Below the pieces are notes generated by a model. It made no database searches and had not been told where the DNA came from. It saw only the letters and a program-made list of their open reading frames with translations. Position numbers and translations under genes: made by a program. From Xenophilus aerolatus (lineage in GTDB: Bacteria > Pseudomonadota > Gammaproteobacteria > Burkholderiales > Burkholderiaceae_C), in assembly GCA_029968055.1 (NCBI GenBank), contig JASCNX010000008.1:62001-126000 (forward strand): a stretch of 64,000 bases of DNA, read 5' to 3'. Position 1 is the stretch's first letter. Each line of letters starts with the position of its first letter. Below are positions 25,550 through 56,589 of the stretch, piece by piece.

Positions 25550-25561
25550 CTTGTATCCAAG
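25550..25561. promoter_or_regulatory. Palindromic operator CTTGTATCCAAG upstream of atzF (site 1)
   Basis: CTTG-TATC-CAAG ends 15 bases before the atzF start codon. The identical 12 bases occur at 32934-32945 upstream of the BMP importer operon, both followed by T and, a few bases later, GATGC. The TTGTATnCAA-like form resembles sites of FCD-type GntR regulators, and one is encoded at 40442-41179. A TTGCAT (25539-25544) and a TATGGA (25562-25567) at 17 bases spacing could be the promoter, giving a very short or absent leader. Confidence 0.6.
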
Positions 25562-25576
25562 TATGGATGCTTTGAT

Positions 25577-27319
25577 ATGGTGCACGAAGTCCCTCTTTCC
25601 GATGCGACGCCGAGGCCTGCCTCGGTCCCTGTCCCCGACGTCCCCCGCGACGGCCGGCCCGAGGCGGCGTGGATCAGCCGGCCGGCGGCGCCCGTGGCCG
25701 GTGCCGCGGCCGGCCCGCTCGCCGGCCTGCGCTTCGGCGTCAAGGACAACATCGACGTCGCGGGCCTGCCCACCACGGCGGCGTGCCCGGCCTTCGCCTA
25801 CCACCCGCCGGCCCACGCCACCGTGGTGCAGCGGCTGCTGGCCGCCGGTGCATCGGTGGCCGGCAAGACCAACCTCGACCAGTTCGCCTGCGGCCTGAAC
25901 GGCACGCGCTCGCCCTACGGCGCGGTGCCCAACAGCTTCGACGCGCGCTACGTCTCGGGCGGCTCCAGTTCGGGCTCGGCCTACGTGGTCGCGACCGGCG
26001 AGGTCGACTTCGCGCTGGGCACCGACACGGCCGGCTCGGGCCGCGTGCCGGCGGGGCTGAACAACATCGTCGGCATCAAGCCCACGCGCGGCCTGCTGAG
26101 CGCGCGCGGCGTGGTGCCGGCGGCGCAGAGCGTGGACTGCGTGTCCATCTTCGCGCGCACCGTCGAGCTCGCCGCCCAGGTGCTGGCCGCGGCCCTGGGG
26201 CCCGATGCCGGCGATCCGTACTCGCGCACGCTGGCCCTGGCGCCGGCGCACTGGCCGGCGCGCTTCCGCTTCGGCGTGCCCTCGCTGCGCGCCTTCTTCG
26301 GCGACACGCAGGCCGAGGCGGCGTGGGACGCAGCGATCGAACAGCTGAAGGCGCTCGGCGGCACGCCGGTGGAGATCGACTACGCACCCCTGGCCGAGGC
26401 CGCCGCGCTGCTCTACGACAGCGCGCTGGTGGCCGAGCGCTACGCCGCCGTGCGCCCCTTCTTCGACGCGCACCCCGAGGCGGTGATGGAGCCGGTGCGC
26501 GGCATCCTCGCCCAGGGCACCGGCTACAGCGCCGCCGAGCACGTCGACGCGCTGACCCGCCTGCGGGCGCTGGGCCAGCGGGCCGCCGCCATGTGGGACG
26601 GCATCGACGTGCTGATGGTGCCGACCGCACCCACGCACTGCACCATCGCCGACATGCAGGCCGACCCGGTGGCGCGCAACAGCCGCATGGGCGTGTACAC
26701 GAACTTCGTGAACCTGCTGGACTACGCCGCCATCTCGGTGCCGTCCAGCCTGCGCTCCGACGGGCTGCCCTTCGGCGTGACCTTCATCGGCCCGTGCGGC
26801 AGCGACTTCGCGCTCGCCGCCCTGGGCCAGCGCTACCACCAGGCCAGCGCGCTGCCGCTGGGCGCCACCGGCCAGCCGCTGCCTGCGGCGCAGGCGCTGC
26901 CCCAGCCGCCGGGCACGGGGCCGACGGTGCGCGTGGCCGTGGTCGGCGCTCACCTGTCGGGCATGCCGCTGAACGTGCAGCTGCAGGAGCGCGGCGGCCG
27001 CCTGCTGCAGGCCACGCACACCGCGCCCGACTACCGCCTCTTCGCGCTGCCCGGCACCACGCCGCCCAAGCCCGGCCTGATCCGTGCTGCAGCGGGCGAG
27101 GGCGCCGCCATCGCGCTGGAGGTGTGGGAGCTGCCCGCCGCCCAGTACGGCAGCTTCGTCGCACTCATCCCGGCGCCGCTGGGCATCGGCACGCTGACGC
27201 TGGCCGACGGCTCGGCGGTGCAGGGCTTCCTCTGCGAGGCGCAGGCCCTGGCCGGCGCGCAGGACATCACCCACCACGGCGGCTGGCGCGCCTACATGGG
27301 CAGCCGCACTGCCGCCTGA
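25577..27319 (+). CDS. atzF: Allophanate hydrolase (amidase signature family)
   Basis: A 580-residue amidase-signature enzyme with the extra C-terminal domain found in allophanate hydrolases. It would hydrolyse allophanate, ending in ammonia and CO2. The Ser-cisSer-Lys triad is visible: K56 (FGVKDNID), S130 (GGSSSGSA), S154 (GTDTAGSGRVPAG). The C-terminal domain (from about residue 455) includes RVAVVGAHLSGMPLN and the late GFLCEAQALAG. The ATG at 25577 lies almost on top of the operator, leaving little leader. It is first of seven genes read together: atzF, binding protein, permease, ATPase, atzG, atzE, atzH. The urea amidolyase partner (urea carboxylase) is absent, so allophanate comes from another route, as in cyanuric acid or biuret catabolism. 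Confidence 0.9.
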   Translation: MVHEVPLSDATPRPASVPVPDVPRDGRPEAAWISRPAAPVAGAAAGPLAGLRFGVKDNIDVAGLPTTAACPAFAYHPPAHATVVQRLLAAGASVAGKTNLDQFACGLNGTRSPYGAVPNSFDARYVSGGSSSGSAYVVATGEVDFALGTDTAGSGRVPAGLNNIVGIKPTRGLLSARGVVPAAQSVDCVSIFARTVELAAQVLAAALGPDAGDPYSRTLALAPAHWPARFRFGVPSLRAFFGDTQAEAAWDAAIEQLKALGGTPVEIDYAPLAEAAALLYDSALVAERYAAVRPFFDAHPEAVMEPVRGILAQGTGYSAAEHVDALTRLRALGQRAAAMWDGIDVLMVPTAPTHCTIADMQADPVARNSRMGVYTNFVNLLDYAAISVPSSLRSDGLPFGVTFIGPCGSDFALAALGQRYHQASALPLGATGQPLPAAQALPQPPGTGPTVRVAVVGAHLSGMPLNVQLQERGGRLLQATHTAPDYRLFALPGTTPPKPGLIRAAAGEGAAIALEVWELPAAQYGSFVALIPAPLGIGTLTLADGSAVQGFLCEAQALAGAQDITHHGGWRAYMGSRTAA

Positions 27320-27367
27320 GGCGCCGCCTTCTTCCCTTCCATACACAGACGTACAGGAGTCCTTGCC

Positions 27368-28354
27368 ATGTCCCTTTCGAGCCCCTCGCGCCGGCAGCTG
27401 CTGCAGGGCGGCAGCGCCGCACTGGCCGTGCTGGCCGCGCCCGCCATCGTTCGCGCGCAGACGACCAAGATCCGCATCGGCTACTGGCCGGTGGCCGCGG
27501 GCCTGCCCTTCTTCGCCGCGGTCGAGAAGGGCTTCTTCAAGGAGGCGGGCCTGGACGTCGAGCCGCTGAAGTTCGCCGGCGCACAGCAGGTCATGGAGGC
27601 GATGCTCTCCGGCCGCGGCGACGGCAGTGCCAACGGCACCGGCTCGGCCAACCTCGCCATCGGCGAGATCGCGCAGCCGGGCCTGTTCAAGATCTTCTGC
27701 ACCAACCCGAGCAATGCCAAGTTCGTGCTGGAGGAGTTCCTGGTGCCGAAGGACAGCCCCATCAAGAGCGTGGCCGAGCTCAAGGGCAAGAAGGTCGCCT
27801 CCGGTCCCGGCATCCAGAACGTGACGCTGGCCAAGACCATGCTGGAGCGTGCCGGTGCGGGCACCATCGCCGTGACCGAGCTGCCCATCGGCCAGCACGT
27901 GGCCGCGCTGGCAGCCGGCCAGGTCGATGCCGTCTACACGCTGGAACCCACCGGCACCGTGGGCCGCCTGAACGGCACCACCCGCCTGCTGGAAGCGGGC
28001 GTGGTGGCGCACTACATCCTGGGCGACCCGATGGCGCCGTGGCACGGCGGCGCCGCCAGCCTCACGACCGACTTCATCAAGAAGAACCCGGAGCTCGCGA
28101 AGAAGTACATCGCCGCCTACGCCAAGGGCGTCGAGTTCGTGCGCACGCAGCCGGCCGAGGCGCGGCAGTACATGAAGGGCTACACCGCCATCGAGGGCGC
28201 GCTCACCAACGAGGTGCCGCTGGCCTCGTACATGCTCTTCAACGAGTTCAAGGCCAGCGACGCGGCCTACTTCCAGAAGTTCTACGACCTGTTCACCGAG
28301 AAGGGCATCTTCGAGAAGAAGGTGACGGTGGACGGCCTTCTCTACAGGGGCTGA
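27368..28354 (+). CDS. ABC transporter substrate-binding protein (NMT1-like) of the atz operon
   Basis: A 328-residue periplasmic protein with a twin-arginine-type signal (PSRRQLLQGGSAALAVLAAP, then IVRAQ). The mature part starts KIRIGYWPVAAGLPFFAAVE and shows FFKEAGLDVEPLKFAG, a pattern of NMT1/THI5-like proteins that bind sulfonates, nitrate, pyrimidines or other N-compounds. A CAGGAG ribosome site lies 9 bases before the ATG. Its position inside an allophanate/biuret-type operon suggests the ligand is a nitrogenous compound feeding AtzG-E-H-F. Confidence 0.88.
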   Translation: MSLSSPSRRQLLQGGSAALAVLAAPAIVRAQTTKIRIGYWPVAAGLPFFAAVEKGFFKEAGLDVEPLKFAGAQQVMEAMLSGRGDGSANGTGSANLAIGEIAQPGLFKIFCTNPSNAKFVLEEFLVPKDSPIKSVAELKGKKVASGPGIQNVTLAKTMLERAGAGTIAVTELPIGQHVAALAAGQVDAVYTLEPTGTVGRLNGTTRLLEAGVVAHYILGDPMAPWHGGAASLTTDFIKKNPELAKKYIAAYAKGVEFVRTQPAEARQYMKGYTAIEGALTNEVPLASYMLFNEFKASDAAYFQKFYDLFTEKGIFEKKVTVDGLLYRG

Positions 28355-28357
28355 GCC

Positions 28358-29185
28358 ATGGCCGACGCGAGCACCACCACCGCCACGCCCTGGACGCCCC
28401 CGGCCGCCACCGCGAGCGCCGTGCCGAAGACGCCGCTCCTGGAGCGCCTGCTGCCGGCCATCGGGCCGGTGGCCCTGTTCATCGTCTGGGACCTGGTCGT
28501 GCGGCTGGGCTTCATCAAGCCCATCCTGCTGCCGGCGCCGGCCGACACGGTGAGCACACTGGTCACCGGCCTGGCCGGCGGGCCGCTGCTGTCGGATTTC
28601 CTGGTGACGGTGTGGCGCACGCTGCAGGCCTTCCTGATCGCCGCCGTCGTCGGCGTGCCGCTGGGCGTGCTGCTGGGCAGCAACGAGAAGGCGTACCGCA
28701 GCGTGGAGTTCCTGATCGACTTCTTCCGCTCCACGCCGAGTTCGGCGCTGATCCCGCTGTTCCTGATGATCTTCGGCACCTCCGACGTCAACAAGGTGGC
28801 CATCGCGGCCTTCGGCGCGCTGCTGATCGTGGTGTTCAACAGCGCCTACGGCGTCATCAACGCGCGCAAGCAGCGCGTGATGGCGGCCAAGGTGATGGGC
28901 GCCACCCGCTGGCAGACCTTTCGCGACGTGCTGGTGTGGGAGAGCCTGCAGCCCAGCTTCGTCGGGCTGCGCTCGGCGGTGTCGATGGCGCTGGTGATCG
29001 TGATCGTGGCCGAGATGTTCATCGGCGCCGACTCGGGCCTGGGCAACCGCATCATCAACTCGCAGCAGGTGCTCAACGTCAAGAGCATGTACGCCTCGAT
29101 CCTCGCGGCCGGGGCGCTGGGCTATGCGCTGAACATCCTGTTCCTCGTCGCGGAACGCAAGATCGTCCACTGGAGCGGAAGATGA
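28358..29185 (+). CDS. ABC transporter permease of the atz operon
   Basis: A 275-residue inner-membrane permease of the SsuC/TauC group with about six hydrophobic segments (first near residues 32-47, VALFIVWDLVVRLGF). The EAA loop is near residues 175-195 (VMGATRWQTFRDVLVWESLQ). It starts 3 bases after the binding-protein stop, and its stop overlaps the ATPase ATG. It forms an importer with its two neighbours. Confidence 0.9.
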   Translation: MADASTTTATPWTPPAATASAVPKTPLLERLLPAIGPVALFIVWDLVVRLGFIKPILLPAPADTVSTLVTGLAGGPLLSDFLVTVWRTLQAFLIAAVVGVPLGVLLGSNEKAYRSVEFLIDFFRSTPSSALIPLFLMIFGTSDVNKVAIAAFGALLIVVFNSAYGVINARKQRVMAAKVMGATRWQTFRDVLVWESLQPSFVGLRSAVSMALVIVIVAEMFIGADSGLGNRIINSQQVLNVKSMYASILAAGALGYALNILFLVAERKIVHWSGR

Positions 29186-30015
29186 AAATGGCGGCAGACA
29201 TCGTGTTGAACGGTCCGGTCTACGCGGACGTCCCCAAGCCGAAGTTCGCGCCCGGCCCCGCCGGCACGCACATCACCATCCGCGGCCTGACCAAGTACTT
29301 CGCCGGCTGGCCGCTGTACGAGAACTTCGACCTCGACATCCCCAAGCACGCGATCGTCTCGGTCTTCGGGCCCAACGGCTGCGGCAAGTCGACGCTGATC
29401 AACATGATCGCGGGGCTGATCCCCATCGACCGCGGCGAGATCCTGTTCGACGGCAAGAGCCTGAAGGACACCAAGATCGGCTACGTGTTCCAGAACTACC
29501 GCGAAGCGATGTTCCCGTGGATGCGCACCATCGACAACATCGCCTACCCGCTCAAGCTCGAAGGCCGCAGCAAGGCCGAGGTGGACCGCCGCATGGCCGA
29601 GCTGGTGGCCAGCTTCGACGTCAAGTTCGACCTCAACCGCTACCCCTACGAGCTCTCGGGCGGGCAGCAGCAGACGGCATCGATCATGCGGGCCCTCGCG
29701 CCCAACCCCGAGGTGCTGTTCCTCGACGAGCCCTTCTCGGCGCTCGACTTCGAGATGACGCTCTTCATCCGCGAGAAGCTGCAGGAGGTCTTCATGCAGA
29801 CCGGCACCACCATGCTGCTGGTCTCGCACGACCTGGAGGAGGCGGTGTACCTCGCCGACCAGGTGCTGCTGCTGACCAAGCGGCCGACCAAGGTGGCCGA
29901 GATCCTCAGCTACACCGACGCGCGCCCGCGCACCCTCGAGACGCTCAGCTCGCCCAGCTTCGTCGCGATGAAGAAGCTGAGCCTGGAGATCTTCCAGCGC
30001 GAGGTGCGCCGATGA
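29182..30015 (+). CDS. ABC transporter ATP-binding protein of the atz operon
   Basis: A 277-residue ATPase. Walker A GPNGCGKSTLINMIAG, Q-loop VFQNYREAMFPWMRT and Walker B VLFLDEPFSALD are standard. The signature LSGG is followed by QQQTASIMRAL instead of the usual QRVAIARAL, a variation seen in part of this family but distinct from the other ATPases in the window. An N-terminal extension of about 30 residues precedes the first strand. It overlaps the permease by ATGA and is followed by atzG after 82 bases containing GC-rich repeat-like DNA. Confidence 0.9.
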   Translation: MKMAADIVLNGPVYADVPKPKFAPGPAGTHITIRGLTKYFAGWPLYENFDLDIPKHAIVSVFGPNGCGKSTLINMIAGLIPIDRGEILFDGKSLKDTKIGYVFQNYREAMFPWMRTIDNIAYPLKLEGRSKAEVDRRMAELVASFDVKFDLNRYPYELSGGQQQTASIMRALAPNPEVLFLDEPFSALDFEMTLFIREKLQEVFMQTGTTMLLVSHDLEEAVYLADQVLLLTKRPTKVAEILSYTDARPRTLETLSSPSFVAMKKLSLEIFQREVRR

Positions 30016-30097
30016 GCGCCGCGCCGGGCCGCGCCCGTCGAGCTTGCGTCCCCTCTGGCGGCAGCGGCGGCACGCGGTGCGAAGCATGGGGGCACCC

Positions 30098-30301
30098 ATG
30101 ACACCGCAGGAGGCAGAGAAGTACGTCGACGCGACCGCTGCCGCGCTGGGCCTGCCGCTGCGCAGCGACCACCGCCCCGGCGTGCTGCGCTACTTCGGCC
30201 TGGCCGCCGGCTTCGCCGCCCTGGTCGAGGCGGTGCCGCTCGAGCCGCACCACGAGAGCGCGATCAGCTTCACGCCGGTGTCGCCGGAGCCGGCCGAATG
30301 A
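30098..30301 (+). CDS. atzG: AtzG-like small subunit (DUF4089)
   Basis: A 67-residue protein: [20 protein letters not shown], then [25 protein letters not shown]. It matches the small DUF4089 proteins of which AtzG is the studied case; AtzG is structurally related to GatC and is needed for a stable complex with the amidase AtzE. Its stop overlaps the atzE ATG, as expected for an obligate partner. The ATG at 30098 is chosen because the conserved part starts there; upstream codons are repeat-like. Confidence 0.88.
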
Positions 30302-31737
30302 CGCCCGCGGAGTGGCTGCGCCAGGATGCGGCCGCCATGGCCGAGGCGGTGCGCAGCGGCACGCTCAGCGCCGTGGCGCTGGCCGAGGCGGCGCTCTCGC
30401 GCATCGACACGACCGACGCACGCGTCAATGCCTTCACCGACGTGGTCGGGCCGCGTGCGCTGCGTCGCGCCGCGCAGGTCGATGCCGCGCTGGCCGGCCC
30501 CTTGGCCGAGCGGGCGCGCGCGCTGCCGCTGCTGGGTGTGCCCTTCGCGGTGAAGAACCTGTTCGACGTCGCGGGCCTGCCCACGCTGGCCGGCTCGAAG
30601 ATCGAACGCACCGCGGCGCCCGCGCGCACCGACGGCCTGCTGGTGCGGCGGCTGGAGCAGGCCGGCGCGGTGCTGGTCGGCGCGCTCAACATGGACGAGT
30701 ACGCCTACGGCTTCACCACCGAGAACAGCCACGCCGGGCCCTGCCGCAACCCGCACGACCTGTCGCGCACGGCAGGCGGCTCCTCGGGCGGCTCGGGCGC
30801 CGCGGTGGCGGCGGGGCAGGTGCCGCTGGCCCTGGGCTCCGACACCAACGGCTCGATCCGCGTGCCGGCCTCGCTCAACGGCGTGTACGGCCTCAAGCCC
30901 ACCTTCGGCCGGCTGCCGCGCACCGGCAGCTACCCCTTCGTCGCCAGCCTCGACCACCTGGGCCCCTTCGCCCGCTCGGTGCGCGACCTGGCGCTGTGCT
31001 ACGACGCGCTGCAGGGCCCGGAGATGCGCGCCCCGCGCGACCCCGGCTGCGCGCAGCGGCCGGTCGAGGCCGTCGCACCGCTGCTCGAACGCGGCGCAGA
31101 GGGGCTGCGCATCGGCGTGCTCGGCGGCTGGTTCCGCCAGTGGGCGCAGCCCGAGGCCATCGCCGCCGTCGACACCGTGGCGCAGGCGCTGGGCGCCCGG
31201 CAGATGGTCGAGCTGCCGCTGGTGGAGGCCGGGCGCGCTGCGGCCTTCCTCATCACCAACGCCGAAGGCGCCGCGCTGCACCTGCCCGACCTGCGCCGCC
31301 GGCCGCAGGATTTCGAGCCGCTGTCGCGCGACCGCTTCCTGGCCGGCGCGCTGCTGCCCGCGGCCTGGGTGGCGCGCGCCCAGCGCGTGCGCCAGCGCTA
31401 TGCCGAAGAGGCGGCACGTGTCTTCGGCCGTTTCGACATCCTGCTGGCGCCGGCCACGCCCTGCGCCGCCACACCGCTGGGCACCGAGTTCTTCGAGCTC
31501 GACGGCCAGCGCCTGCCGCTGCGCCCCAACGTGGGTGTGATGACGCAGCCCATCTCGTGCATCGGGCTGCCGGTCGCCGCGGTGCCGGTGTGGGGCGCCC
31601 ATGCCACGCTGCCCATCGGCGTGCAGGTGATCGCCGCGCCCTGGCGCGAAGACCTCGCGCTGCGCGTCGCCGCCGTGCTGGAGCGTGCCGGCATCACCCA
31701 GGCGCCGGTCGCCGACCTGGAAGAGAGCCCGACATGA
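30298..31737 (+). CDS. atzE: AtzE-like amidase (1-carboxybiuret amidohydrolase)
   Basis: A 479-residue amidase-signature enzyme. The catalytic Lys is in [16 protein letters not shown], the cis-Ser in [13 protein letters not shown] and the nucleophilic Ser in [13 protein letters not shown]. The [18 protein letters not shown] segment is characteristic of AtzE. The studied AtzE, with AtzG, removes ammonia from 1-carboxybiuret to give 1,3-dicarboxyurea in cyanuric acid breakdown. Start and stop overlap atzG and atzH respectively. The physiological substrate here may differ, because atzG-E-H sets also occur without cyanuric acid hydrolase. Confidence 0.9.
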
Positions 31738-32120
31738 TCGACATCGCCGACATCAACCTGCCCGACGTGGTGGCCGAGGTGCGCGGCGCCTTCGCGCTGT
31801 ACGAGGACGCGCTGGTGCACAACAAGGTCGAGATCCTCGACGCCCTGTTCTGGAACAGCCCGCACACCCTGCGCTACGGCGCGACCGAGAACCTCTATGG
31901 CTACGAGGCCATCGCCGCCTTCCGCGCCGCGCGGCCCTCGCAAGGCCTGATGCGCGACCTGCTGCGCGTGGAGATCACCACCTACGGCCGCGACTGCGCC
32001 ACCGCCAACTGCGAGTTCCGCCGCGAAGGCAGCACCCGAACGGGGCGCCAGAGCCAGACCTGGATGCGCACCGCACAAGGCTGGCGCGTGGTGGCGGCGC
32101 ATGTGAGCCTGCTGGACTGA
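31734..32120 (+). CDS. atzH: AtzH-like NTF2-fold protein (DUF3225), 1,3-dicarboxyurea amidase
   Basis: A 128-residue NTF2-superfamily protein. In Pseudomonas ADP, AtzH was reported to convert 1,3-dicarboxyurea to allophanate, with Tyr22 and Arg46 needed for catalysis (recalled from the literature). Here Y23 (FALYEDALV) and R47 ([16 protein letters not shown]) occupy the matching places, so the enzyme looks intact. It overlaps atzE by ATGA and ends the rightward operon that began with atzF. Together AtzG-E-H-F form a complete route from a carboxybiuret-like compound to ammonia and CO2. Confidence 0.9.
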
Positions 32121-32150: not shown

Positions 32151-32570
32151 TCACGCCTTGAACGGGTTGAAGAGCGGCACGCCGAAGCTCTTGAAGTCGG
32201 CGACGTTGCGCGTGGCCACGGTGAGCCCATGCGCCTTCGCGGTCGCTGCGATCATGGCGTCCTCGTAGAGGGTGTCGGATTGGCGGTGCATCAATTGCGC
32301 CCAGCCCCGGAAGGCCGTGCCGTCCATCGCGAGCACGTTGTACGTGCCCGCCACGGCATCGAGCCACGCCTCGAGGGCGGCCGCCTTCTCGCGGTCCTGC
32401 TCCCGGGTGATCTCGATGCCCGCCTGGATCTCCCCGATCGTGACGGCGCTCAGGTGGATCTGCCGTTCGTCCAGCGCCGCGAACCAGCCCGTCACCGCGC
32501 CATGCGGCTTGGGCCGGCGCAGTTCGGAGATGACGTTGGTGTCCAGCAGGTACATCGCCAGGCTGCTCAT
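32151..32570 (-). CDS. PIN-domain toxin (VapC/FitB type)
   Basis: A 139-residue PIN-domain ribonuclease, the toxin of a type II toxin-antitoxin pair. The first acidic residue is in MYLLDTNVISELRRPKP, the middle Glu in SAVTIGEIQAGIE and the later Asp in YEDAMIAATAKAHG, giving the usual acidic site for Mg2+. Its ATG (32570) overlaps the antitoxin stop. The gene is convergent with atzH, with 30 bases between the stops. No mobile-element genes flank it. Confidence 0.9.
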   Translation of the reverse strand: MSSLAMYLLDTNVISELRRPKPHGAVTGWFAALDERQIHLSAVTIGEIQAGIEITREQDREKAAALEAWLDAVAGTYNVLAMDGTAFRGWAQLMHRQSDTLYEDAMIAATAKAHGLTVATRNVADFKSFGVPLFNPFKA

Positions 32571-32824
32571 TCGGCGACGGGGGCCGAGCGGCGGCGGGCA
32601 TGGCCGCGAGGCGGCACCACGAGTTCGGTGCGCGCCGCGTCGGACAGCAGCAGTTGCTTGATCGATGGGCGCGCAGAGGCCTGGAGCCTGCGCCATTCGT
32701 CGACCGACACCAGGACGGCCGCTTCGGTGCCGCGCCGCGTCACCATCTGGGGCCCCTCGGCCAGACAGATTTCCAGGAACTCGCTGAAGCGCGCCTTTGC
32801 GTCCTGCACGGGCCATGTCTGCAT
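32567..32824 (-). CDS. Phd/YefM-type antitoxin
   Basis: An 85-residue DNA-binding antitoxin: WPVQDAKARFSEFLEICLAEGPQMVTRRGTEAAVLVS is the Phd/YefM fold. The C-terminal part (RPSIKQLLLSDAARTELVVP) would wrap the toxin. It overlaps the PIN toxin by ATGA. A direct repeat just upstream (32840-32860) is the likely operator for autoregulation. Confidence 0.88.
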   Translation of the reverse strand: MQTWPVQDAKARFSEFLEICLAEGPQMVTRRGTEAAVLVSVDEWRRLQASARPSIKQLLLSDAARTELVVPPRGHARRRSAPVAE

Positions 32825-32945: not shown

Positions 32946-33019
32946 TTGAGATGCATGTCTCGTGCACCAAGGCGGACCGTTTCGCCGACTTCCATCGAAC
33001 CTTCTGGAGCCACCCACCC

Positions 33020-34132: not shown

Positions 34133-34139
34133 TCATGTC

Positions 34140-34225
34140 GGCCCCTCGGCTTTTCACTCCCTGCGGTCGTGTAACGCCATCCCCCGGGGGGAGGGCGCGG
34201 CCCGCTTGGGGCGGCCCGGCGCTGG
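34140..34225. repeat. GC-rich intergenic repeat
   Basis: The segment contains CCCCCGGGGGG and the core CTTGGGGCGGCCCGGCG (34205-34221), followed by CTGGGCCGC. It is the same family as 13925-13941 and the insertion at 10481-10582. It lies between the binding-protein and first permease genes, where a structured spacer could lower downstream expression. Confidence 0.7.
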
Positions 34226-34244
34226 GCCGCATCACCGCGTCGGA

Positions 34245-36322: not shown

Positions 36323-36344
36323 ACACAACACAAGGAATGCATCC

Positions 36345-45821: not shown

Positions 45822-45832
45822 GGACCCCCACC

Positions 45833-46615: not shown

Positions 46616-46629
46616 CGCGGCCGCGAAGT

Positions 46630-46668
46630 GTTGCCGTTACGGCAACGCCGCTAGCGCGATAAAGCGGC
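46630..46668 (+). other. Two consecutive intergenic hairpins after the binding-protein gene
   Basis: GTTGCCG-TTA-CGGCAAC (46630-46646) is a perfect 7-base stem; GCCGCT...AGCGGC (46647-46668) follows directly. There is no T-run, so not a classical terminator. Such stems after a binding-protein gene often protect the upstream mRNA and reduce read-through, or the first palindrome may be an operator (inference). Confidence 0.5.
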
Positions 46669-46711
46669 AAAGAAGAGCGCTCGGTGGCACGTCGGCTGCG
46701 TGTGTGCCGGC

Positions 46712-47569: not shown

Positions 47570-47572
47570 CCC

Positions 47573-48595: not shown

Positions 48596-48616
48596 CAGGA
48601 CGACCGAGGCATCGAC

Positions 48617-49408: not shown

Positions 49409-49428
49409 CCCGCAACGAAGGAATCCCC

Positions 49429-50901
49429 ATGAGCAAGGACGTCGACCTCGTCATCCGCGGCGCACAGGTGGTGTCGCCCGATCGCATCATCGAAGCCTCG
49501 GTCGCCATTGCGGGCGAGCACATCGTCGCGGTGGGCCACGACGACACCATGCCGCCGGCGCGCAACGAGATGCGCGCCGATGGCCTGTACCTGCTGCCCG
49601 GCGCGATCGACAGCCACGTGCACTTCCGCGACCCGGGCTATCCGAACAAGGAGACGTGGAAGACGGGCTCGGCCGCGGCCGCGCTCGGCGGCGTGACCAC
49701 CGTGTTCGAGATGCCGAACACGAATCCGCCCACCGGCACCGTGGAGGCGCTGAAGATCAAGCTCAAGGCGGCCGAATCCTCGTACTGCGACTTCGGCATC
49801 CACGGGCTGCTCGGCGACGACAGCATCGACAGGCTCGAGGAGCTGCTCGACGCGGGCGTGACGAGCTTCAAGGCCTTCGTGGGCAACACCTTCGGCAACC
49901 TGCCGGCGCCGACCGACGGCGCGCTGCTCGAAGGCTTCGAGATCCTCGCGCCGCGGGGCATCCGCACGGTGGTGCATGCCGAGAACTCGTCGATCCTGTT
50001 CCGCCGGCAGAAGAAGATGCAGGAGGCCGGCCGCATCGACGCCATGGCCCACCTGGCGGCGCGGCCCGCCGTGGCCGAGATCGAGGCCATCGGCCGCGTG
50101 CTGACGCTGGCCGAATGGACCGGCGCGCGGGTGCACATCGCGCACCACAGCGCGGCGGATTCGCTCTTCCTGCTGCGCGAGGCCAAGCGCCGCGGCGTGG
50201 ACGTGACGGCCGAAACCTGCCCGCAGTACCTGCTGCTCAACACCGAGCACATGCGCACGCTCGGCGGCGTGATGCGGCTGAACCCGCCCATCCGCGAGCC
50301 GCGGCACAACCAGCCGCTGTGGGACGCGCTGATGGACGGCACGCTGGACATGATCGCCACCGACCATGCGCCGCACGCCCCCGAGGAAAAGACGCGCGAG
50401 AGCATCTGGGACTGCGACTGCGGCTTTCCGGGCGTGGAGACGCAGATGCCGCTGATGCTCACCGAGGTCAACCGCGGCCGCGCCACGCTGATGGACTACG
50501 TGCGCTGGAGCGCCGTGGCGCCGGCCAAGGCCTGGGGCCTGTACGGCACCAAGGGCGTGATCGCGCCCGGCGCCCATGCCGACATCGCCATCGTCGACAT
50601 GGCGCGCCAGGGCGTGCTGTCGCAGAACAGGCTGCAGAGCATCAGCCGCATCTCGCCCTGGAACGGCCGGCCGGTGCAGGGCTATCCGCTGCACACGCTG
50701 CTGCGCGGGCGCTTCGTCATGCGCGACGGTCGGCTGGTGGAAGACGCAGTGGGCTGGGGCCGCTCGGTCAAGGCGGTGCAGAAGATGCCCACGCCCCGGC
50801 CGCGCAACACCGAGCACTACAGCCGCGCCATCCTCGAGACGCCGCCCGGCGTGCCGCCCACCGCCGTGCCGGTGGGCGAGGTGGACTGGAGCGCTTCATG
50901 A
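49429..50901 (+). CDS. Dihydroorotase/allantoinase/hydantoinase-like cyclic amidohydrolase
   Basis: A 490-residue metal-dependent hydrolase of the cyclic-amidase group. Metal ligands are visible in AIDSHVHFRDPGYPNKE (H-x-H), SFKAFVGNTFG (bridging Lys of the carboxylated site), VVHAENSS, VHIAHHSAADS and MIATDHAPHAPEEK (catalytic Asp). Substrates of relatives are five- or six-membered cyclic ureides such as dihydroorotate, allantoin and hydantoins. A C-terminal extension (from about residue 455) is Pro-rich. Its stop overlaps the AtzD-family gene, so both ring-opening enzymes are co-translated. Dihydroorotase for pyrimidine synthesis is unlikely given the context. Confidence 0.87.
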   Translation: MSKDVDLVIRGAQVVSPDRIIEASVAIAGEHIVAVGHDDTMPPARNEMRADGLYLLPGAIDSHVHFRDPGYPNKETWKTGSAAAALGGVTTVFEMPNTNPPTGTVEALKIKLKAAESSYCDFGIHGLLGDDSIDRLEELLDAGVTSFKAFVGNTFGNLPAPTDGALLEGFEILAPRGIRTVVHAENSSILFRRQKKMQEAGRIDAMAHLAARPAVAEIEAIGRVLTLAEWTGARVHIAHHSAADSLFLLREAKRRGVDVTAETCPQYLLLNTEHMRTLGGVMRLNPPIREPRHNQPLWDALMDGTLDMIATDHAPHAPEEKTRESIWDCDCGFPGVETQMPLMLTEVNRGRATLMDYVRWSAVAPAKAWGLYGTKGVIAPGAHADIAIVDMARQGVLSQNRLQSISRISPWNGRPVQGYPLHTLLRGRFVMRDGRLVEDAVGWGRSVKAVQKMPTPRPRNTEHYSRAILETPPGVPPTAVPVGEVDWSAS

Positions 50902-52025
50902 GCGCTGGCGCCCCCCAGCATGTCGATGCCCATGTGGTGCCCTGCCGCGGCCCCGGCGACCTGAGCGGCGTGCAGGCGCTGGTCGAGGCCGGCACGCTGG
51001 ATCCGCGCCACATCGTCGCCGTGATTGGCAAGACCGAGGGCAACGGCTGCGTCAACGACCACACGCGCGACTTCGCCACCCTGGCCTGGTGCCACTTCCT
51101 CGCGCCCTGGCGCGATTGCACGCCGCAGGCGGTGCATGCGCAGGTGGCACTGGTGATGTCCGGCGGCACCGAGGGGGTGCTGTCGCCGCACTTCACCGTC
51201 TTCACCCGCCGCCCGGCCTTGCCGCACGAGGTGGTCGAGGGCGAGAAGCGGCTGGTGGTCGGCATCGCCCACACGCGCGACTTCGCGCCGGAGGAGATGG
51301 GCCGCCAGGCGCAGATCGCCGCCACGGCCGAGGCGGTGCAGGCCGCCATGCGCGACGCCGGCATCGACAGCGCTGCCGACGTGCACTTCGTGCAGGTCAA
51401 GTGCCCGCTGCTCACCTCGGCCAAGGTGGACGACGCCTTGCGCCGCGGGCAGGACACCGTCACCCGCGACACCTACGAGTCGATGGGCTATTCGCGCGGC
51501 GCCTCGGCCCTGGGCGTGGGCGTGGCGCTGGGCGAGATCGACCCGGCGCGCGCCACCGATGCGGCCGTGCTGCACGACGCCACGCTGCATTCGGCACGGG
51601 CCTCCGTGTCGGCCGGCATCGAGCTGGAGGGCAATGTGGTCATCGTGCTGGGCGAGGCCACGGGCAGCGCCTCGCCGCTGCGCATCGGCCATGCGCTGAT
51701 GCGCGACGCCATCGACACGGCCGGCCTGCGCACGCTGCTGCGCGAGCACTTCGGCCTGGACCCGGAGGCCGATGCCGGCCGCATTGCGCAGCGGCTGGTC
51801 AACCTGCTGGCCAAGGCCGAGGCGAGCCCCGACGGCCGGGTGCGCGGCCTGCGCCACACCATGCTGAACGACTCGGACATCCACTCCACCCGCCACGCGC
51901 GCGCCGCCGTCGGCGCGGTGCTGGCGTCGGTGGTGGGCCGCGCCGCGCTGTACGTCTCGGGCGGTGCCGAGCATCAGGGACCGCCCGGCGGCGGCCCGGT
52001 GGCCGCGCTCGTGCGCGTGGCCTGA
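50898..52025 (+). CDS. Cyanuric acid hydrolase/barbiturase family ring-opening amidohydrolase
   Basis: A 375-residue member of the small AtzD/TrzD/barbiturase family, which opens cyanuric acid or barbituric acid rings. Family signatures are IGKTEGNGCVND, VMSGGTEGVLSPH, VQVKCPLLTSAK, ESMGYSRGASALG and YVSGGAEHQGPPGGGPVA. Three Lys-Ser pairs expected for the threefold active site are present: K45 with S88, K168 with S236 or S238, K306 with S354. The residue that discriminates cyanuric acid hydrolase from barbiturase cannot be assigned without alignment. It lies between the cyclic amidohydrolase (overlap) and an ABC importer. Confidence 0.9.
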   Translation: MSAGAPQHVDAHVVPCRGPGDLSGVQALVEAGTLDPRHIVAVIGKTEGNGCVNDHTRDFATLAWCHFLAPWRDCTPQAVHAQVALVMSGGTEGVLSPHFTVFTRRPALPHEVVEGEKRLVVGIAHTRDFAPEEMGRQAQIAATAEAVQAAMRDAGIDSAADVHFVQVKCPLLTSAKVDDALRRGQDTVTRDTYESMGYSRGASALGVGVALGEIDPARATDAAVLHDATLHSARASVSAGIELEGNVVIVLGEATGSASPLRIGHALMRDAIDTAGLRTLLREHFGLDPEADAGRIAQRLVNLLAKAEASPDGRVRGLRHTMLNDSDIHSTRHARAAVGAVLASVVGRAALYVSGGAEHQGPPGGGPVAALVRVA

Positions 52026-52053
52026 GCTTCCATTCTTTTTGCTGGAACATCCC

Positions 52054-52926
52054 ATGAGCCAGAGCTTCATCCAACTCTCCAACGTGATGCTGCGCTACGG
52101 CGGCGGCACCATCGCCCTGGACCACACCACGCTGGGCATCGACCGCGGCGACTTCGTCGCGCTGGTCGGCCCGAGCGGCTGCGGCAAGTCGACCATCCTC
52201 AAGCTGCTGGCCGGCCTGCTGCGCCCCACCTCGGGCGCAGTGATCGCCGGCGGCCGCGAGGTCGGGCCGGCCGGCGCACGCCCGGTGGTGGCCGGCCGGC
52301 CGGCGCTGCGCATCGGCCTGGCCTTCCAGAACCCGACCATGCTGCCGTGGCTCACGATCCGGGAGAACGTGATGATCCCGCTGAAGATCGTCGAGCCCTT
52401 CCGGCAGGACTACGCCCGCAAGAAGCGCGGCGAGTACGCCGAGCGCGCCGACGCGCTGCTGGCCCAGGTGGGCCTGCGCGGCTTCGGCGACAAGCGGCCC
52501 TGGCAGCTGTCGGGCGGCATGCTGCAGCGCGCCTCGCTGTGCCGGGCGCTGGTGCACGAGCCCGAGCTGCTGCTGCTGGACGAGCCCTTCGGCGCCCTCG
52601 ACCAGTTCACCCGCGAGGAGCTGTGGGACATCATGCAGACGCTGTGGATGACCCAGCGGCCCACCGTGCTGCTGGTGACGCACGACCTGCGCGAGTCGGC
52701 CTACCTCGCCAACCGCATCTGCGTGATGAGCGCGCGGCCCGGCCGCATCCTGGAGACGCGCGACGTGGACTTCGCCCGCCCGCGCACGCTGCAGTCCAGC
52801 TACGACCCGGCCTTCGGCGCGCTGGTGCAGCAGTTGCGCATGCGCATCGCCGAGGCGCGCTGCGAGAGCGACACGGCCGCCGTGGCCGCTGCCGTGCCCG
52901 CTGCGCTGCAGGGGGTGGCGGCATGA
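52054..52926 (+). CDS. ABC transporter ATP-binding protein, block C importer
   Basis: A 290-residue SsuB/NrtD-type ATPase: Walker A GPSGCGKSTILKLLAG, Q-loop AFQNPTMLPWLTI, signature LSGGMLQRASLCRAL, Walker B LLLLDEPFGALD. A GC-rich insert of about 12 residues (GPAGARPVVAGR) precedes the Q-loop. The C-terminal tail after residue 265 is Ala-rich. It is coupled to the permease by ATGA overlap and follows the AtzD-family gene by 28 bases. Confidence 0.9.
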   Translation: MSQSFIQLSNVMLRYGGGTIALDHTTLGIDRGDFVALVGPSGCGKSTILKLLAGLLRPTSGAVIAGGREVGPAGARPVVAGRPALRIGLAFQNPTMLPWLTIRENVMIPLKIVEPFRQDYARKKRGEYAERADALLAQVGLRGFGDKRPWQLSGGMLQRASLCRALVHEPELLLLDEPFGALDQFTREELWDIMQTLWMTQRPTVLLVTHDLRESAYLANRICVMSARPGRILETRDVDFARPRTLQSSYDPAFGALVQQLRMRIAEARCESDTAAVAAAVPAALQGVAA

Positions 52927-53774
52927 ACGCGCGCGTGAACGTCGCGGACGGGGTCGAACCCGCCGTCGAAGCCGCCGCGCCCGCGGTGCTGCGGCTGTCC
53001 CCGGTGGTGCGCCAGCGCCTGCTCTCCGGCCTCGCGCTGGTGGGCTTCTTCGTGGTCTGGGAACTCGTGTGCCTGGCCAGCGGCATCTCGGACCTGGTGC
53101 TGCCGCGCCCCAGCCAGATCGCCCGCGTGCTGATCGAGCGCATGCCGCTCCTGTGGCCGCACACGGTGCAGACGCTCTACACCACGCTGCTGGGCTTCGC
53201 GCTCGGCGTGGCGGCGGGCATCGTCATCGGCGTGGGCATCGGCTCGTCGCGCCTGGCCTACGACGTCACCTATCCGCTGCTGGTGGGCTTCTCCAGCATC
53301 CCGAAGGTGGCGGTGGTGCCGCTGTTCGTCGTGTGGTTCGGCGCGGGCACCGTGCCGGCGGTGCTGACCTCGATGGTCATCAGCATCTTTCCGGTGGTGG
53401 TCAACGTGGCCACGGGCCTGGCCAGCACCGAGCCCGAGCTGGAGGACGTGCTGCGCGTGCTGGGCGCGCGCAAGCGCGACATCCTCTGGAACGTGGGCCT
53501 GCCACGCGCCATGCCCTACCTGTTCGCCTCGCTCAAGATCGCCATCACGCTGTCCTTCGTGGGCACGGTGCTGGCCGAGACCGTGGCCTCCAACCGCGGC
53601 ATCGGCACCGTGATGATGATCGCCAGCGGCAACTTCGACGTGCCGATGGTGTTCGCCGGGCTCTTCCTGCTGGCGGCCATGGGCGTGGTGCTCTATGCGC
53701 TGTCGGCGCTGGTGGAGCGGCGCGTGACCGGCTGGTCGCAGCGCAAGACCGACCTGGCGGCGACCGGCGCTTGA
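52923..53774 (+). CDS. ABC transporter permease, block C importer
   Basis: A 283-residue inner-membrane permease of the SsuC type with about six hydrophobic segments (first at about residues 35-53, SGLALVGFFVVWELVCLAS). The EAA loop is at about residues 178-205 (VLRVLGARKRDILWNVGLPRAMP). With its ATPase and one of the two paralogous binding proteins (47573 and 54052) it forms the block C importer, probably for the heterocycle that the operon degrades. Confidence 0.9.
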   Translation: MNARVNVADGVEPAVEAAAPAVLRLSPVVRQRLLSGLALVGFFVVWELVCLASGISDLVLPRPSQIARVLIERMPLLWPHTVQTLYTTLLGFALGVAAGIVIGVGIGSSRLAYDVTYPLLVGFSSIPKVAVVPLFVVWFGAGTVPAVLTSMVISIFPVVVNVATGLASTEPELEDVLRVLGARKRDILWNVGLPRAMPYLFASLKIAITLSFVGTVLAETVASNRGIGTVMMIASGNFDVPMVFAGLFLLAAMGVVLYALSALVERRVTGWSQRKTDLAATGA

Positions 53775-53890
53775 GATGCGGCGGCGGCTGGTGCCTGAGC
53801 CCCAGTGCCGGATTCAGGCACCGCGCCCCCTCAATGCAATGCGGGTCAGTGGACCCAGCACCGTTCTGGTCACCCCGTCCCCGCTCGGAT

Positions 53891-53993
53891 CAACCCACAG
53901 CCGTCCGGTTCAACCAACAGCCGTTCGGGCTGAGCCTGTCGAAGCCGGGGCACGCAGGCGTGCAAGCCCTTCGACAAGCGCAGGGCGAACGGG
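53891..53993. repeat. Tandem repeat plus inverted repeat of the CTTCGACAGGCTCAGC type
   Basis: Two similar 18-19-base units with a 20-base period (53891-53908, 53911-53928; CAACCMACAGCCGTYCGG) lead into an imperfect inverted repeat: CCGTTCGGGCTGAGCCTGTC... (53921-53945) and GCCCTTCGACAAGCGCAGGG... (53966-53993). It lies in the 277-base gap between the permease and the second binding protein, the largest gap inside block C. Confidence 0.7.
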
Positions 53994-54051
53994 CAACCCG
54001 GTGCGGACCGGCGCACGGATGCCGTTCTTCTTCCCCTTTCAAGGAGCTTCC

Positions 54052-55113
54052 ATGTCCCGCTTCCTCTCCCGTCGCGCCGCCCGCCTGGCGCTGTCGGCCC
54101 TGTCCCTGCTGATGGCCCTGGGCGCCGCGCTGGCGCCCGCACCGGCCGCCGCCCAGACCGACACCCCGATCAAGTTCGTCCTCGACTGGAAGCTGCAGGG
54201 CGTGCATGCCTGGTACTACCTCGCGCAGGACCGCGGCTACTTCGCCCGCGAGAAGCTGGCCGTGACCATCGACCAGGGCGACGGCTCGGCCGCCACCGTC
54301 ACGAAGATCATGGCCGGTGCCTACCAGGCCGGCTTCGGCGATGTGAACGCCATCGTGCAAAACGCCACCGCCAAACCCGGCCAGGCGCCAGTGATGGTCT
54401 ACATGCTCTACAACCGCGCGCCCTTCGCGCTGATCGCCAAGGCGGGCGGACCCATCCGCACCCCCAAGGACCTGCAGGGCCGCACCGTCGGCACGCCGGC
54501 CGGCGGGGCGGCGGCCCGCATGTTCCCCGTGATCGCGGCGCGCACTGGCATCGACGCCGCCAAGGTCGCCTGGACCAACGTCGCGCCGAACCTGCAGGAG
54601 CAACTGCTGCTCAAGGACCATGTGGACGCCGCGGCCGTGTTCTCGGTCACCAGCTACATGAACCTCGTGGCGCAGGGCATCGACCCCGACAAGGACATCC
54701 GCTGGTTCCACTACGGCGACTATGGCGTCGAGCTCTACGGCAACGGCGTGATGGTGTCGCAGCAGCTGCTGCGCGAGCGGCCCGAGGCCGTGGCCGGCCT
54801 GGTGCGGGCGATCCACCACGCGGTGCGCGACACCATCGCCGATCCCGACGCGGCCATCGCCGCGCTGGTCAAGCGCGAGCCGCTGCTCAACAAGGACCTG
54901 GAGAAACGCCGCCTGCTCTACACGCTCAAGACCGTCATGCTCACCCCGGAAGTGGCCACCCAGGGCCTGGGCGATGTGAGCGATGCCCGCTTCGCCCGCG
55001 CCTTCCTGCAGCTCAAGGAGGCCTTCGACCTGCCGCGCGTGCCCACGGCGGCCGAGGTATTCGATCGCCGCTTCCTGCCGCCGCTGGCCGAGCGGACGGT
55101 GGCCAGGCGATGA
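54052..55113 (+). CDS. ABC substrate-binding protein (NMT1-like), block C copy 2
   Basis: A 353-residue periplasmic protein paralogous to that at 47573. The signal peptide is MSRFLSRRAARLALSALSLL with cleavage near PAAAQT. The mature part begins PIKFVLDWKLQGVHAWYYLAQ, with GYFAREKLAVTIDQGDGSAA and MAGAYQAGFGDVNAIVQ. An AAGGAG ribosome site lies just before the ATG at 54052. Its stop overlaps the amidohydrolase start. Ligand-lining regions differ between copies (ASRRPADAP versus ATAKPGQAP; ANDGALKLF versus AGGAAARMF), hinting at different ligands. Confidence 0.9.
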   Translation: MSRFLSRRAARLALSALSLLMALGAALAPAPAAAQTDTPIKFVLDWKLQGVHAWYYLAQDRGYFAREKLAVTIDQGDGSAATVTKIMAGAYQAGFGDVNAIVQNATAKPGQAPVMVYMLYNRAPFALIAKAGGPIRTPKDLQGRTVGTPAGGAAARMFPVIAARTGIDAAKVAWTNVAPNLQEQLLLKDHVDAAAVFSVTSYMNLVAQGIDPDKDIRWFHYGDYGVELYGNGVMVSQQLLRERPEAVAGLVRAIHHAVRDTIADPDAAIAALVKREPLLNKDLEKRRLLYTLKTVMLTPEVATQGLGDVSDARFARAFLQLKEAFDLPRVPTAAEVFDRRFLPPLAERTVARR

Positions 55114-56573
55114 GCGACGCAGCGGCCTCTGCCGCCATCGACTGCGCCTGGCTGCTGGCCGAGCCGGGTGCAGCGCCCGCGCAGCGCGACCGGCGCATCC
55201 GCATCGAAGGCGGCCGCGTCGCCGTCATCGAGGCGCTGTCCGCCCCGGTGCCCGGCCGCCGACGTCTGGCGCTGCCGGCGCTGGCCAATGCGCACGACCA
55301 TGCGCGCACCGTGCGCAGTGCCACGCTGGGCGCCTTCGGCCAGCCGCTCGAAAGCTGGCTGCCCTTCCTGGGCGTGGTGCCGGGCATGGACCCGTACCTG
55401 TGCGCCGCGACCTCCTTCGCCCGATCGCTGCGCAACGGCGTGGTGGACCTGATGGTGCACTACACCCGCGTGCAGGGCGGCTTGCCCTACGTCGACGAGG
55501 CAGTCGCCGTGGGCCGGGCCGCACGCGACGTGGGCGTGCGCATCGGCTTCGCCGTCGCCATGCGCGACCGCCACGGGCTGGGCTATGCGGATGATGCGAC
55601 GGTGCTGGCCGCGCTGCGCCCGGCGATCCGCGACGACATCGCCCGCCGGCTGTCGGCGCCGTCGGCGGCGCCCGCGCAGCAGCTCGCGCTGGTGGAGGAG
55701 GTTGCGCAGCGCTTCGCCGACGAAGGGCTCGACGCCCACGCGGACCTGCAGTACGGCCCCACCGGCGTGCAGTGGTGCAGCACGCCGCTGCTCGAAGCCA
55801 TTGCGCAGGCGTCCGCCGACACCGGCCGCCGCGTGCACATGCACCTGCTGGAGACGCAGTACCAGCGTGCCTGGGCCGATGCCGTGCATCCGGGCGGCAT
55901 CGTGCGCTTCCTGGACGACATCGGCCTGCTCGGCCCGCGCCTCACCCTGGCGCACTGCACCTGGGCGCGGCCGGAGGAACTGGCCCTGATCGCCGAGCGC
56001 GGCGCGACCATCGCGGTCAACACCAGCTCCAACCTGGGCCTCCAATCGGGCATCGCGCCCCTCGCGCAGATGCTGGCGCAGGGCTGCCGTGTCGCCATGG
56101 GGCTGGACGGCATGGCCTTCGACGAGGACGACGACGCCCTGCGCGAGGCGCGCCTGGCCTATGCGCTGCACCGCGGCTGGGGCTACGACACCACCATGAC
56201 GGCGGCCCAGCTCTGGCGCTTTGCCTCGCGCGGGCGCATCGCGCCGGGGGAGCCGGCGGACCTGGTGCTGCTCGACTGGGACGCGCTGGACGACGACGCC
56301 CTGTTCGACGATGTCGATCCGCTGGATCTGCTGCTCGCCCGCGGCACCGGCCGGCACGTGCACACCGTCATCGCCGGCGGGCGCACGGTGGTCGAGGCAG
56401 GGCGCGTCCTGGGCGTGGACGAGGTGGCCCTGCAGGTCGAGCTGCGGGCCCGCATGCGGGCGGCCCTTGCGGCGGACACGGCCCATGCGGGCTGGCGCCG
56501 CACCGTGCAGGCCTTCGCCGAGGACATGGCCCCCTTCTGCCGCGACGGCCGCTTCCTGGGTGGCTGCTGCTGA
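55110..56573 (+). CDS. Amidohydrolase, cytosine deaminase/s-triazine deaminase-like
   Basis: A 487-residue metal-dependent hydrolase of the deaminase-type amidohydrolases (cytosine/guanine deaminase, AtzA/TrzN, chlorohydrolase group). Visible are an N-terminal beta domain, the first metal motif LANAHDHARTVRS (H-x-H), VHMHLLETQYQRA, LAHCTWARPEEL and the catalytic Asp in VAMGLDGMAFDEDDD. In this family it would strip an amino or similar group from a ring before opening. It is the last gene of block C, coupled to the second binding protein. Substrate unknown; a role upstream of the AtzD-family enzyme is the natural guess. Confidence 0.85.
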   Translation: MSDAAASAAIDCAWLLAEPGAAPAQRDRRIRIEGGRVAVIEALSAPVPGRRRLALPALANAHDHARTVRSATLGAFGQPLESWLPFLGVVPGMDPYLCAATSFARSLRNGVVDLMVHYTRVQGGLPYVDEAVAVGRAARDVGVRIGFAVAMRDRHGLGYADDATVLAALRPAIRDDIARRLSAPSAAPAQQLALVEEVAQRFADEGLDAHADLQYGPTGVQWCSTPLLEAIAQASADTGRRVHMHLLETQYQRAWADAVHPGGIVRFLDDIGLLGPRLTLAHCTWARPEELALIAERGATIAVNTSSNLGLQSGIAPLAQMLAQGCRVAMGLDGMAFDEDDDALREARLAYALHRGWGYDTTMTAAQLWRFASRGRIAPGEPADLVLLDWDALDDDALFDDVDPLDLLLARGTGRHVHTVIAGGRTVVEAGRVLGVDEVALQVELRARMRAALAADTAHAGWRRTVQAFAEDMAPFCRDGRFLGGCC

Positions 56574-56589
56574 TCCGTCGGATCAGCAG
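56567..56589 (+). terminator. Perfect hairpin spanning the end of the block C operon
   Basis: CTGCTGATCCG-T-CGGATCAGCAG: 11-base perfect arms around one base, overlapping the TGA (56571-56573) of the amidohydrolase. There is no T-run after it, so it is a weak terminator candidate or an mRNA 3'-end stabiliser for the operon. Confidence 0.45.

Follow-up and report, generated by a model that had tools for sequence, protein, structure and literature searches.

A predicted three-block nitrogen-scavenging island in Xenophilus aerolatus with a proposed entry arm for cyanuric acid

The window analysed here is a stretch of 64,000 nucleotides from Xenophilus aerolatus (assembly GCA_029968055.1, contig JASCNX010000008.1, positions 62,001 to 126,000 of the forward strand; coordinates below count from its first letter), with about 71% G+C in a genome of 5.1 Mb. 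It carries a nitrogen-scavenging island of about 31 kb, which runs in three blocks from the atzF start codon (ATG) at 25577 to the stop codon at 56573 of a deaminase-like amidohydrolase gene, here called AHY. The island probably supplies nitrogen from cyanuric acid, triuret and biuret under ammonia shortage, with block 3 adding an AtzR-type entry arm, and we regard it as a predicted, functionally coherent unit. Blocks 1 and 2 are, as judged from family models and gene order, known modules; the new part is block 3, a conserved and apparently undescribed AtzR-type operon. A first-pass annotation, made by a model from the letters, had listed the genes of three blocks between 25550 and 56589, and that list is correct, the annotated genes spanning 25577-56573: its two biuret-hydrolase-like enzymes of block 2 are BiuH (37414-38136) and a TrtA-like hydrolase (39762-40427), and its third cysteine hydrolase is the enzyme here called CysH (46745-47569). 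To these can be added a PIN-domain gene with a small open reading frame, a GntR regulator, an ADH, a LysR and an XRE-type regulator, an alpha/beta hydrolase, an SDR and a family-3 binding protein. Curated NCBIfam cut-offs are passed by AtzF, AtzE, AtzH, AmiF, BiuH and AtzD, and a Pfam cut-off by AtzG. The features are as follows, percentages giving identity to the protein named.

25577-32120, plus strand: block 1, with atzF, an NMT1-type importer, atzG, atzE and atzH
25528-25543, plus strand: sigma-54-type promoter TGGCACG-N4-TTGCA, perfect, 33 bp before the atzF ATG
25577-27319, plus strand: atzF, allophanate hydrolase (TIGR02713 767 bits, cut-off 511, scored from 25694; 54% to AtzF of pADP-1)
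27368-30015, plus strand: NMT1/SsuA-type ATP-binding cassette (ABC) importer, with binding protein, permease and ATPase
30098-30301, plus strand: atzG, carboxybiuret hydrolase small subunit (PF13318 47 bits, cut-off 24)
30298-31737, plus strand: atzE, 1-carboxybiuret hydrolase (NF006631 690 bits, cut-off 461; 59% to AtzE)
31734-32120, plus strand: atzH/HpxZ family, dicarboxyurea decarboxylase in pADP-1 (NF033625 204 bits, cut-off 135; 67% to AtzH)
32951-41179, plus strand: block 2, with a BMP-type importer, AmiF, BiuH, the TrtA-like hydrolase and GntR
32951-36322, plus strand: BMP-type importer, binding protein and two permeases (58-64% to Rhizobium leguminosarum; binding protein 39% to AtzT)
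36345-37409, plus strand: AmiF-type formamidase (NF009803 573 bits, cut-off 406)
37414-38136, plus strand: biuH, biuret hydrolase (NF050097 423 bits, cut-off 370; 76% to R. leguminosarum)
38133-39761, plus strand: ATPase of the block 2 importer
39762-40427, plus strand: trtA-like triuret hydrolase (best PDB match 6xix, 316 bits, against 223 for the best biuret hydrolase)
40457-41179, plus strand: GntR/FCD regulator
43144-56573: block 3, with the LysR and XRE-type regulators on the minus strand and the other genes to AHY on the plus strand
43144-44052, minus strand: AtzR-like LysR regulator of block 3 (51% to AtzR)
44049-44948, minus strand: XRE-type regulator
46685-46700, plus strand: sigma-54-like -24/-12 site, 10/12, before CysH
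46745-47569, plus strand: CysH, isochorismatase-fold hydrolase nearest to RutB (RutB 120 bits; BiuH and TrtA 81-90)
47573-48595, plus strand: SBPc, NMT1 binding protein (PF09084)
48617-49408, plus strand: SDR oxidoreductase (PF00106; 73% to Azospirillum and Skermanella)
49429-50901, plus strand: DHO, hydantoinase/allantoinase/dihydroorotase-like cyclic amidohydrolase
50898-52025, plus strand: atzD, cyanuric acid hydrolase (NF052395 527 bits, cut-off 360; 59% to AtzD of pADP-1)
52054-53774, plus strand: ATPase and permease of the block 3 importer
54019-55113, plus strand: SBPd, second NMT1 binding protein (PF09084)
55110-56573, plus strand: AHY, TRZ/ATZ-type deaminase-like amidohydrolase

From the genes, their families and order, the kinship of the regulator and the promoter-like sites, all of which are observed, we infer the reactions and their induction. 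AtzD would convert cyanuric acid, and the TrtA-like enzyme triuret, to 1-carboxybiuret, which AtzEG would turn into 1,3-dicarboxyurea and AtzH from there into allophanate; carboxybiuret could also lose CO2 spontaneously to give biuret, from which BiuH would make allophanate, and AtzF would release ammonia and CO2 from allophanate. AtzD sits in block 3 and would feed blocks 1 and 2. As in a pADP-1-type carboxybiuret pathway, atzG, atzE and atzH are adjacent and accompanied by atzF, although atzD is not in the same operon (it starts at 50898, and atzH ends at 32120), and BiuH, the TrtA-like enzyme and AtzF occur together as in a triuret/biuret pathway. The TrtA-like assignment follows the best solved relative, the triuret hydrolase TrtA, and not a curated TrtA model. 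According to parts of published accounts, triuret and cyanuric acid meet at carboxybiuret (PMC7948467), and the reactions of the pathway are already in print (PMC6219798, PMC7948467). Since AtzD, TrtA, AtzEG, AtzH, BiuH and AtzF would together form a complete funnel to ammonia, these steps need no larger ring. The first-pass annotation had taken a larger ring compound for the probable real substrate and knew of no described pathway with this combination. For blocks 1 and 2 the ring is unneeded, the extra hydrolases being of the BiuH and TrtA types, and the statement about pathways is wrong, given these two papers, as far as consulted, and an operon of R. leguminosarum; for block 3, in contrast, the idea that a further ring compound may be involved is reinforced.

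The AtzD of block 3 is predicted to be a cyanuric acid hydrolase. All nine active-site positions (three Ser/Lys pairs and three Arg) are kept, and Lys156, Arg188, Ser226 and Glu230 of the Azorhizobium enzyme all align with their counterparts. The roles of the active-site residues, and the Gln that barbiturases carry at the Arg188 position, are described in part of PMC4051656; at that position (Azorhizobium numbering) Arg is found in the window AtzD and in 91/91 aligned sequences. A barbiturase in an island for oxidative pyrimidine breakdown would be of the same Pfam family and would suit the RutB-like hydrolase nearby, and the score of the solved barbiturase (295 bits) is close to that of the Azorhizobium cyanuric acid hydrolase (307 bits), but AtzD of pADP-1 scores 417 bits and the residue is Arg, not Gln. 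Barbiturase identity is rejected on these residues, and the reading built on it is extremely improbable. The window AtzD is also the sole PF09663 match in the 5.1-Mb genome (E up to 0.001), no second AtzD appearing as a further match to that family, which was the only search made for one; since this sole family member lies in block 3, block 3 would supply the ring opener for blocks 1 and 2. Elsewhere, loci L014 and L015, in genomes G177 and G056, hold divergent AtzD-family paralogues in which one Arg and two of the three Ser of the active site are missing; these may be ring openers of another, third type, or may not be enzymes.

Block 3 resembles an AtzR system, that is, an AtzR-type operon with sigma-54-type control. 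When AtzR was compared with the genome, the block 3 LysR was the best match at 298 bits, the next of 43 matches reaching 147 bits. Part of PMC6834077 describes a dependence of both operons of pADP-1 on sigma-54 and a response of AtzR to cyanuric acid; an AtzR-type regulator and sigma-54 promoters are likewise present by sequence in the window, with a weaker site (10/12) before CysH. The perfect site before atzF is the window's only match at one mismatch or fewer (2.4 such matches are expected), and among the atzF upstream regions of relatives, with duplicates removed, 5/10 carry a site of at least 10/12, four of them perfect. Before CysH, a site of at least 10/12 is seen in 27/41 regions of relatives compared with 1.2% of shuffles, which preserve base composition only, and in 0/43 control regions before the internal gene SBPc. 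Judged by equal length, three contigs entered the promoter scan twice (L102=L016, L115=L049, L116=L045), and the CysH set of 41 includes L102. Over 27 different sequences, that of the window among them, the boxes reach 1.64 and 1.43 bits and the flanks and spacer 0.4-0.5; the box values are inflated because the scan selected the sites. In many relatives, as in the window (46685-46715), an ATG in frame with CysH recurs about 11 nt past the -12 box; the true start of CysH may lie at 46712, very close to where the transcript is expected to begin.

On the plus strand, block 3 has the order alpha/beta hydrolase, family-3 binding protein, CysH, SBPc, SDR, DHO, AtzD, ATPase, permease, SBPd and AHY, and its importer parts comprise one ATPase, one permease and three candidate binding proteins. 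CysH is nearest to RutB also when a profile of 16 sequences is used (154 vs 115), and it misses the curated RutB cut-off of the Rut pyrimidine pathway at 131 bits vs 378. RutB yields aminoacrylate and carbamate, as stated in part of PMC5806882. DHO scores best with L-hydantoinase and allantoinase; it falls below the single-enzyme (equivalog) cut-offs for allantoinase (353.8 vs 357.9) and dihydropyrimidinase (302 vs 393) and passes the broad pyrC_multi model (319 vs 279). Alignments show that it keeps the HxH, Lys, His, His and Asp residues, which act as metal ligands. AHY stays under every NCBIfam cut-off (best PRK12393, 116 bits vs 543), and the functional residues of TRZ/ATZ deaminases (HxH, HxHxxE, His and Asp) are invariant in 14 AHY sequences. 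This enzyme pattern fits a route in which a ring is deaminated, DHO opens it and a carbamoyl group is split off, without naming the ring: AHY, or an AtzC-like enzyme in some relatives, would convert an amino-substituted ring to the keto form for AtzD, and SDR, DHO and CysH would act on a related cyclic ureide, opening and stripping it.

The enzymes of block 3 are in part exchanged among relatives. At seven loci without AHY in the stretch, one other amidohydrolase family lies beside SBPd instead; the sole member of it that was compared, from L026, has AtzC as its closest match (185 bits, compared with 138 for cytosine deaminase). Against the 8-oxoguanine deaminase model, which has a cut-off of 532 bits, the stand-in at L072 reaches only 398. 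CysH was not found at L072, where an M20 hydrolase follows SDR-DHO-AtzD, nor in the Skermanella and Azospirillum clusters, which have an FmdA-type amidase. In genome G244 (L112, 2736-10201) AHY has TrtA-BiuH-AmiF on one side and the reductive pyrimidine genes preA/dihydropyrimidinase on the other, a setting that points to a pyrimidine- or triazine-like substrate. G056 (L109, 15913-19901) carries a second LysR of the AtzR-like type, which faces an SDR, a paralogue of AHY (43%) and a Rieske-type oxygenase fragment.

The block 3 operon recurs in Burkholderiales and in part in Alphaproteobacteria. DHO is near AtzD in 40 of the best 80 of at least 520 confirmed AtzD loci, a set hence biased to the window's type (36 on the same strand within 200 bp, four on the opposite strand about 4 kb off). 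DHO-seeded searches are free of that bias: in a family sample of 250 genomes DHO occurs in six, in all of which AtzD adjoins it and AtzH is also present, and in a class sample it occurs in 2/321 genomes, our own and G419, with AtzD about 5 kb from DHO in the latter. Seven plasmid records, four of them from Azospirillum strains other than TSH58, hold DHO at 55-58% identity; in the three inspected, AtzD is in the Skermanella cluster and in neither the Azospirillum TSH58 nor the Novosphingobium record. A further 12 haloarchaeal records match DHO at about 40% identity, with no operon in the one inspected. In the AtzD tree, with branching read without support values, DHO-linked enzymes fall on several branches, Skermanella beside R. 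leguminosarum and G419 beside Paenibacillus, and L072, L062 and the L056/L057/L060 group lie outside the main clade. That AtzD joins the DHO operon in various positions and on various branches argues for a functional link. Literature searches in a partial open-access collection returned no description of the block 3 operon and, among the matches listed, nothing on point about AtzD gene neighbourhoods and nothing on bacterial breakdown of oxonate, azauracil or formylbiuret.

Block 3 goes with blocks 1 and 2, and not vice versa. In the family sample AtzH occurs in 80 genomes and the BiuH family in 75, of which 63 pass its cut-off; AtzD occurs in 11 and AHY in seven, a count that includes G056, whose AHY is a 45% paralogue. 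AtzH is present in 11/11 AtzD genomes compared with 69/239 others (Fisher p 2e-6), and the BiuH family in 10/11 compared with 65/239 (p 3e-5; in G183 only below the cut-off), with counts tallied by eye from search listings and p values uncorrected for kinship. The block 3 LysR has matches (E up to 1e-75) in 14/199 relatives. Within the genus (n = 15 genomes, own included) it occurs in nine and BiuH in 13; all nine LysR genomes have BiuH, 5-11.3 kb away on one contig in seven of them (own included) and on a different draft contig in two. The co-occurrence of AtzD with AtzH and the BiuH family, together with this linkage, bears out the earlier proposal that the blocks belong together functionally. 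Independent occurrence, which had been named as evidence against it, is seen on one side: blocks 1 and 2 occur without block 3, as the counts for AtzH and BiuH against DHO show, whereas every DHO genome has both AtzD and AtzH. The three blocks are contiguous in the window and in G177, a genome of the same genus, where atzF, atzG and atzE are in place and atzH lies elsewhere. Pseudacidovorax intermedius DSM 21352, with an AtzD 94% identical to that of the window, likewise appears to have the three blocks apart from atzH in block 1. Genome G071, also from this genus, carries both blocks 1 and 2 at 94-99% identity (block 1 permease to GntR, the part fetched) and no AtzD, and in two Rhodoferax loci AtzD lies between atzH and the BMP importer.

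How the parts of block 3 relate to each other and to cyanurate can be read in other ways. It is a serious possibility, although short of an even chance, that block 3 consists of two unrelated arms with a common importer and regulator, AtzD and AHY acting on triazines and SBPc-SDR-DHO-CysH on a hydantoin or dihydropyrimidine apart from cyanurate. AtzD indeed stands with AHY and no DHO in the stretch at L022 and L066 (and likewise at L058 and L059, where the contigs end too near), AtzD-SBPd-AHY points away from a complete DHO operon at L062, and DHO accompanies SDR without AtzD in the Azospirillum TSH58 and Novosphingobium records; the leaning of DHO towards L-hydantoinase and allantoinase and the M20 hydrolase after SDR-DHO-AtzD at L072, where no CysH was found, go the same way. 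Against such a split, AtzD adjoins DHO in every DHO genome of the family sample, the pairing recurs on several AtzD branches in several positions, and CysH is preceded by an AtzR-like regulator. Cyanuric acid and hydantoins arise from guanine by oxidation, and the island could instead scavenge leftovers of urate or guanine oxidation, namely triuret, cyanuric acid and biuret, along with hydantoin-type products on which AHY, DHO and CysH would act. The 8-oxoguanine deaminase score of the L072 stand-in, albeit under its cut-off, and the name of the AtzH model, HpxZ, with its link to oxalurate catabolism, would agree with this; however, the island genes include no uricase or xanthine dehydrogenase family match (the rest of the genome was not searched) and AHY is under every curated cut-off, which leaves this reading unlikely. 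The passage of one larger ring compound through all three blocks in sequence, as first proposed, we hold to be more doubtful still: all enzyme types are present and the blocks are contiguous in the window and G177, but blocks 1 and 2 are widespread without block 3, G071 has them with no AtzD, and in G177 atzH stands outside block 1.

Nitrogen supply from cyanuric acid, triuret and biuret, with block 3 as an entry arm, is the reading that we favour, and several points weigh against it. Blocks 1 and 2 are common without AtzD (75-80 of 250 genomes vs 11), so they need not serve cyanurate; that they can serve triuret and biuret would explain why they are often found without it. The cyanurate route leaves SDR, DHO and CysH without a task. 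AHY occurs in G244 without AtzD or DHO over the cut-offs, and hence need not make the substrate of AtzD. A related operon on an Azospirillum TSH58 plasmid has no AtzD in that record, the site before CysH is only 10/12 in the window with 14/41 related regions lacking one that good, and the diagnostic TrtA residue Ala134 is Met in the TrtA-like enzyme.

A bolder and rather unlikely extension is that block 3 supplies cyanuric acid in nature. As an AtzR/sigma-54 regulon it would use a deaminase (AHY or the AtzC-like one), the SDR and the hydantoinase-like enzyme to make cyanuric acid and ureides from a naturally occurring nitrogen ring, and the AtzD-AtzR pair would have evolved here and not for herbicides. 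The ring may be an amino- or aza-pyrimidine of the 5-azacytosine, 5-azauracil or oxonate kind, or an oxidised purine product. The block 3 operon may point to a natural origin of cyanuric acid, and the coupling of AtzD to a deaminase, an SDR and a hydantoinase-like enzyme provides a short gene list for seeking the natural precursor. The arrangement also suggests that environmental bacteria already had the atrazine-era pathway in modular pieces.

Further genes recur around these loci. A DUF3830-type gene lies in or near the block 3 operon in 33/88 loci, from Burkholderiales to Azospirillum (for example L018, 15747-16169), and a LOG-family (TIGR00730) gene in or beside it in 16/88 (L066, 11965-12531; L100, 15372-15947; L062, 1735-2346; and 13 others); tblastn finds neither in the window, and one DUF3830 gene lies elsewhere in the genome (C5:212241). 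LOG-family enzymes release the base from a nucleotide, and the substrate might be one that can be trapped as a nucleotide. In Sulfuriferula (L066, 5246-6274) the AtzD-AHY pair is separated from atzE by genes for an adenosine deaminase, a GntR regulator and a BMP binding protein. Between blocks 1 and 2 of the window lies a PIN-domain (VapC-like) gene (32151-32824, minus strand), with a small upstream open reading frame (32567-32824) that looks like an antitoxin, and this same gap is the position of AtzD in the two Rhodoferax loci.

Compared with known systems, blocks 1 and 2 agree in gene order with beta-proteobacterial clusters in which, according to part of PMC6219798, allophanate hydrolase lies upstream of atzG-atzE-atzH, with an ABC transporter between in about half, and ABC transporters and amidases follow downstream; the section of that paper on AtzH homologues describes no adjoining AtzD/DHO operon, unlike the window. 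The Skermanella pSR-2 and Azospirillum TSH58_p05 clusters have LysR, SBPc, SDR, DHO, ATPase, permease, SBPd and AHY in common with block 3, but no CysH in the stretch, and add an FmdA-type amidase and DUF3830. TrtA-like, BiuH and AtzF of the triuret pathway (PMC7948467, in part) are all in the window, which adds AtzEGH. Block 2 matches gene by gene, at 50-76% identity, the operon BMP-permeases-formamidase-BiuH-AtzD-ATPase-TrtA of R. leguminosarum bv. viciae 248, except that AtzD lies inside that operon, between BiuH and the ATPase, and in block 3 here; BiuH of R. leguminosarum strain 3841 is described in part of PMC5806882. To pADP-1 of Pseudomonas sp. ADP (atzDGEHF, atzRSTUVW) the window is linked by AtzD (59%), AtzE (59%), AtzH (67%), AtzF (54%), AtzR (51%) and the BMP binding protein (39%) and by sigma-54-type sites common to both. 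In contrast to pADP-1, its AtzD lies about 19 kb from atzGEH in another operon, and BiuH, TrtA, AmiF, DHO, SDR, CysH and AHY are extra.

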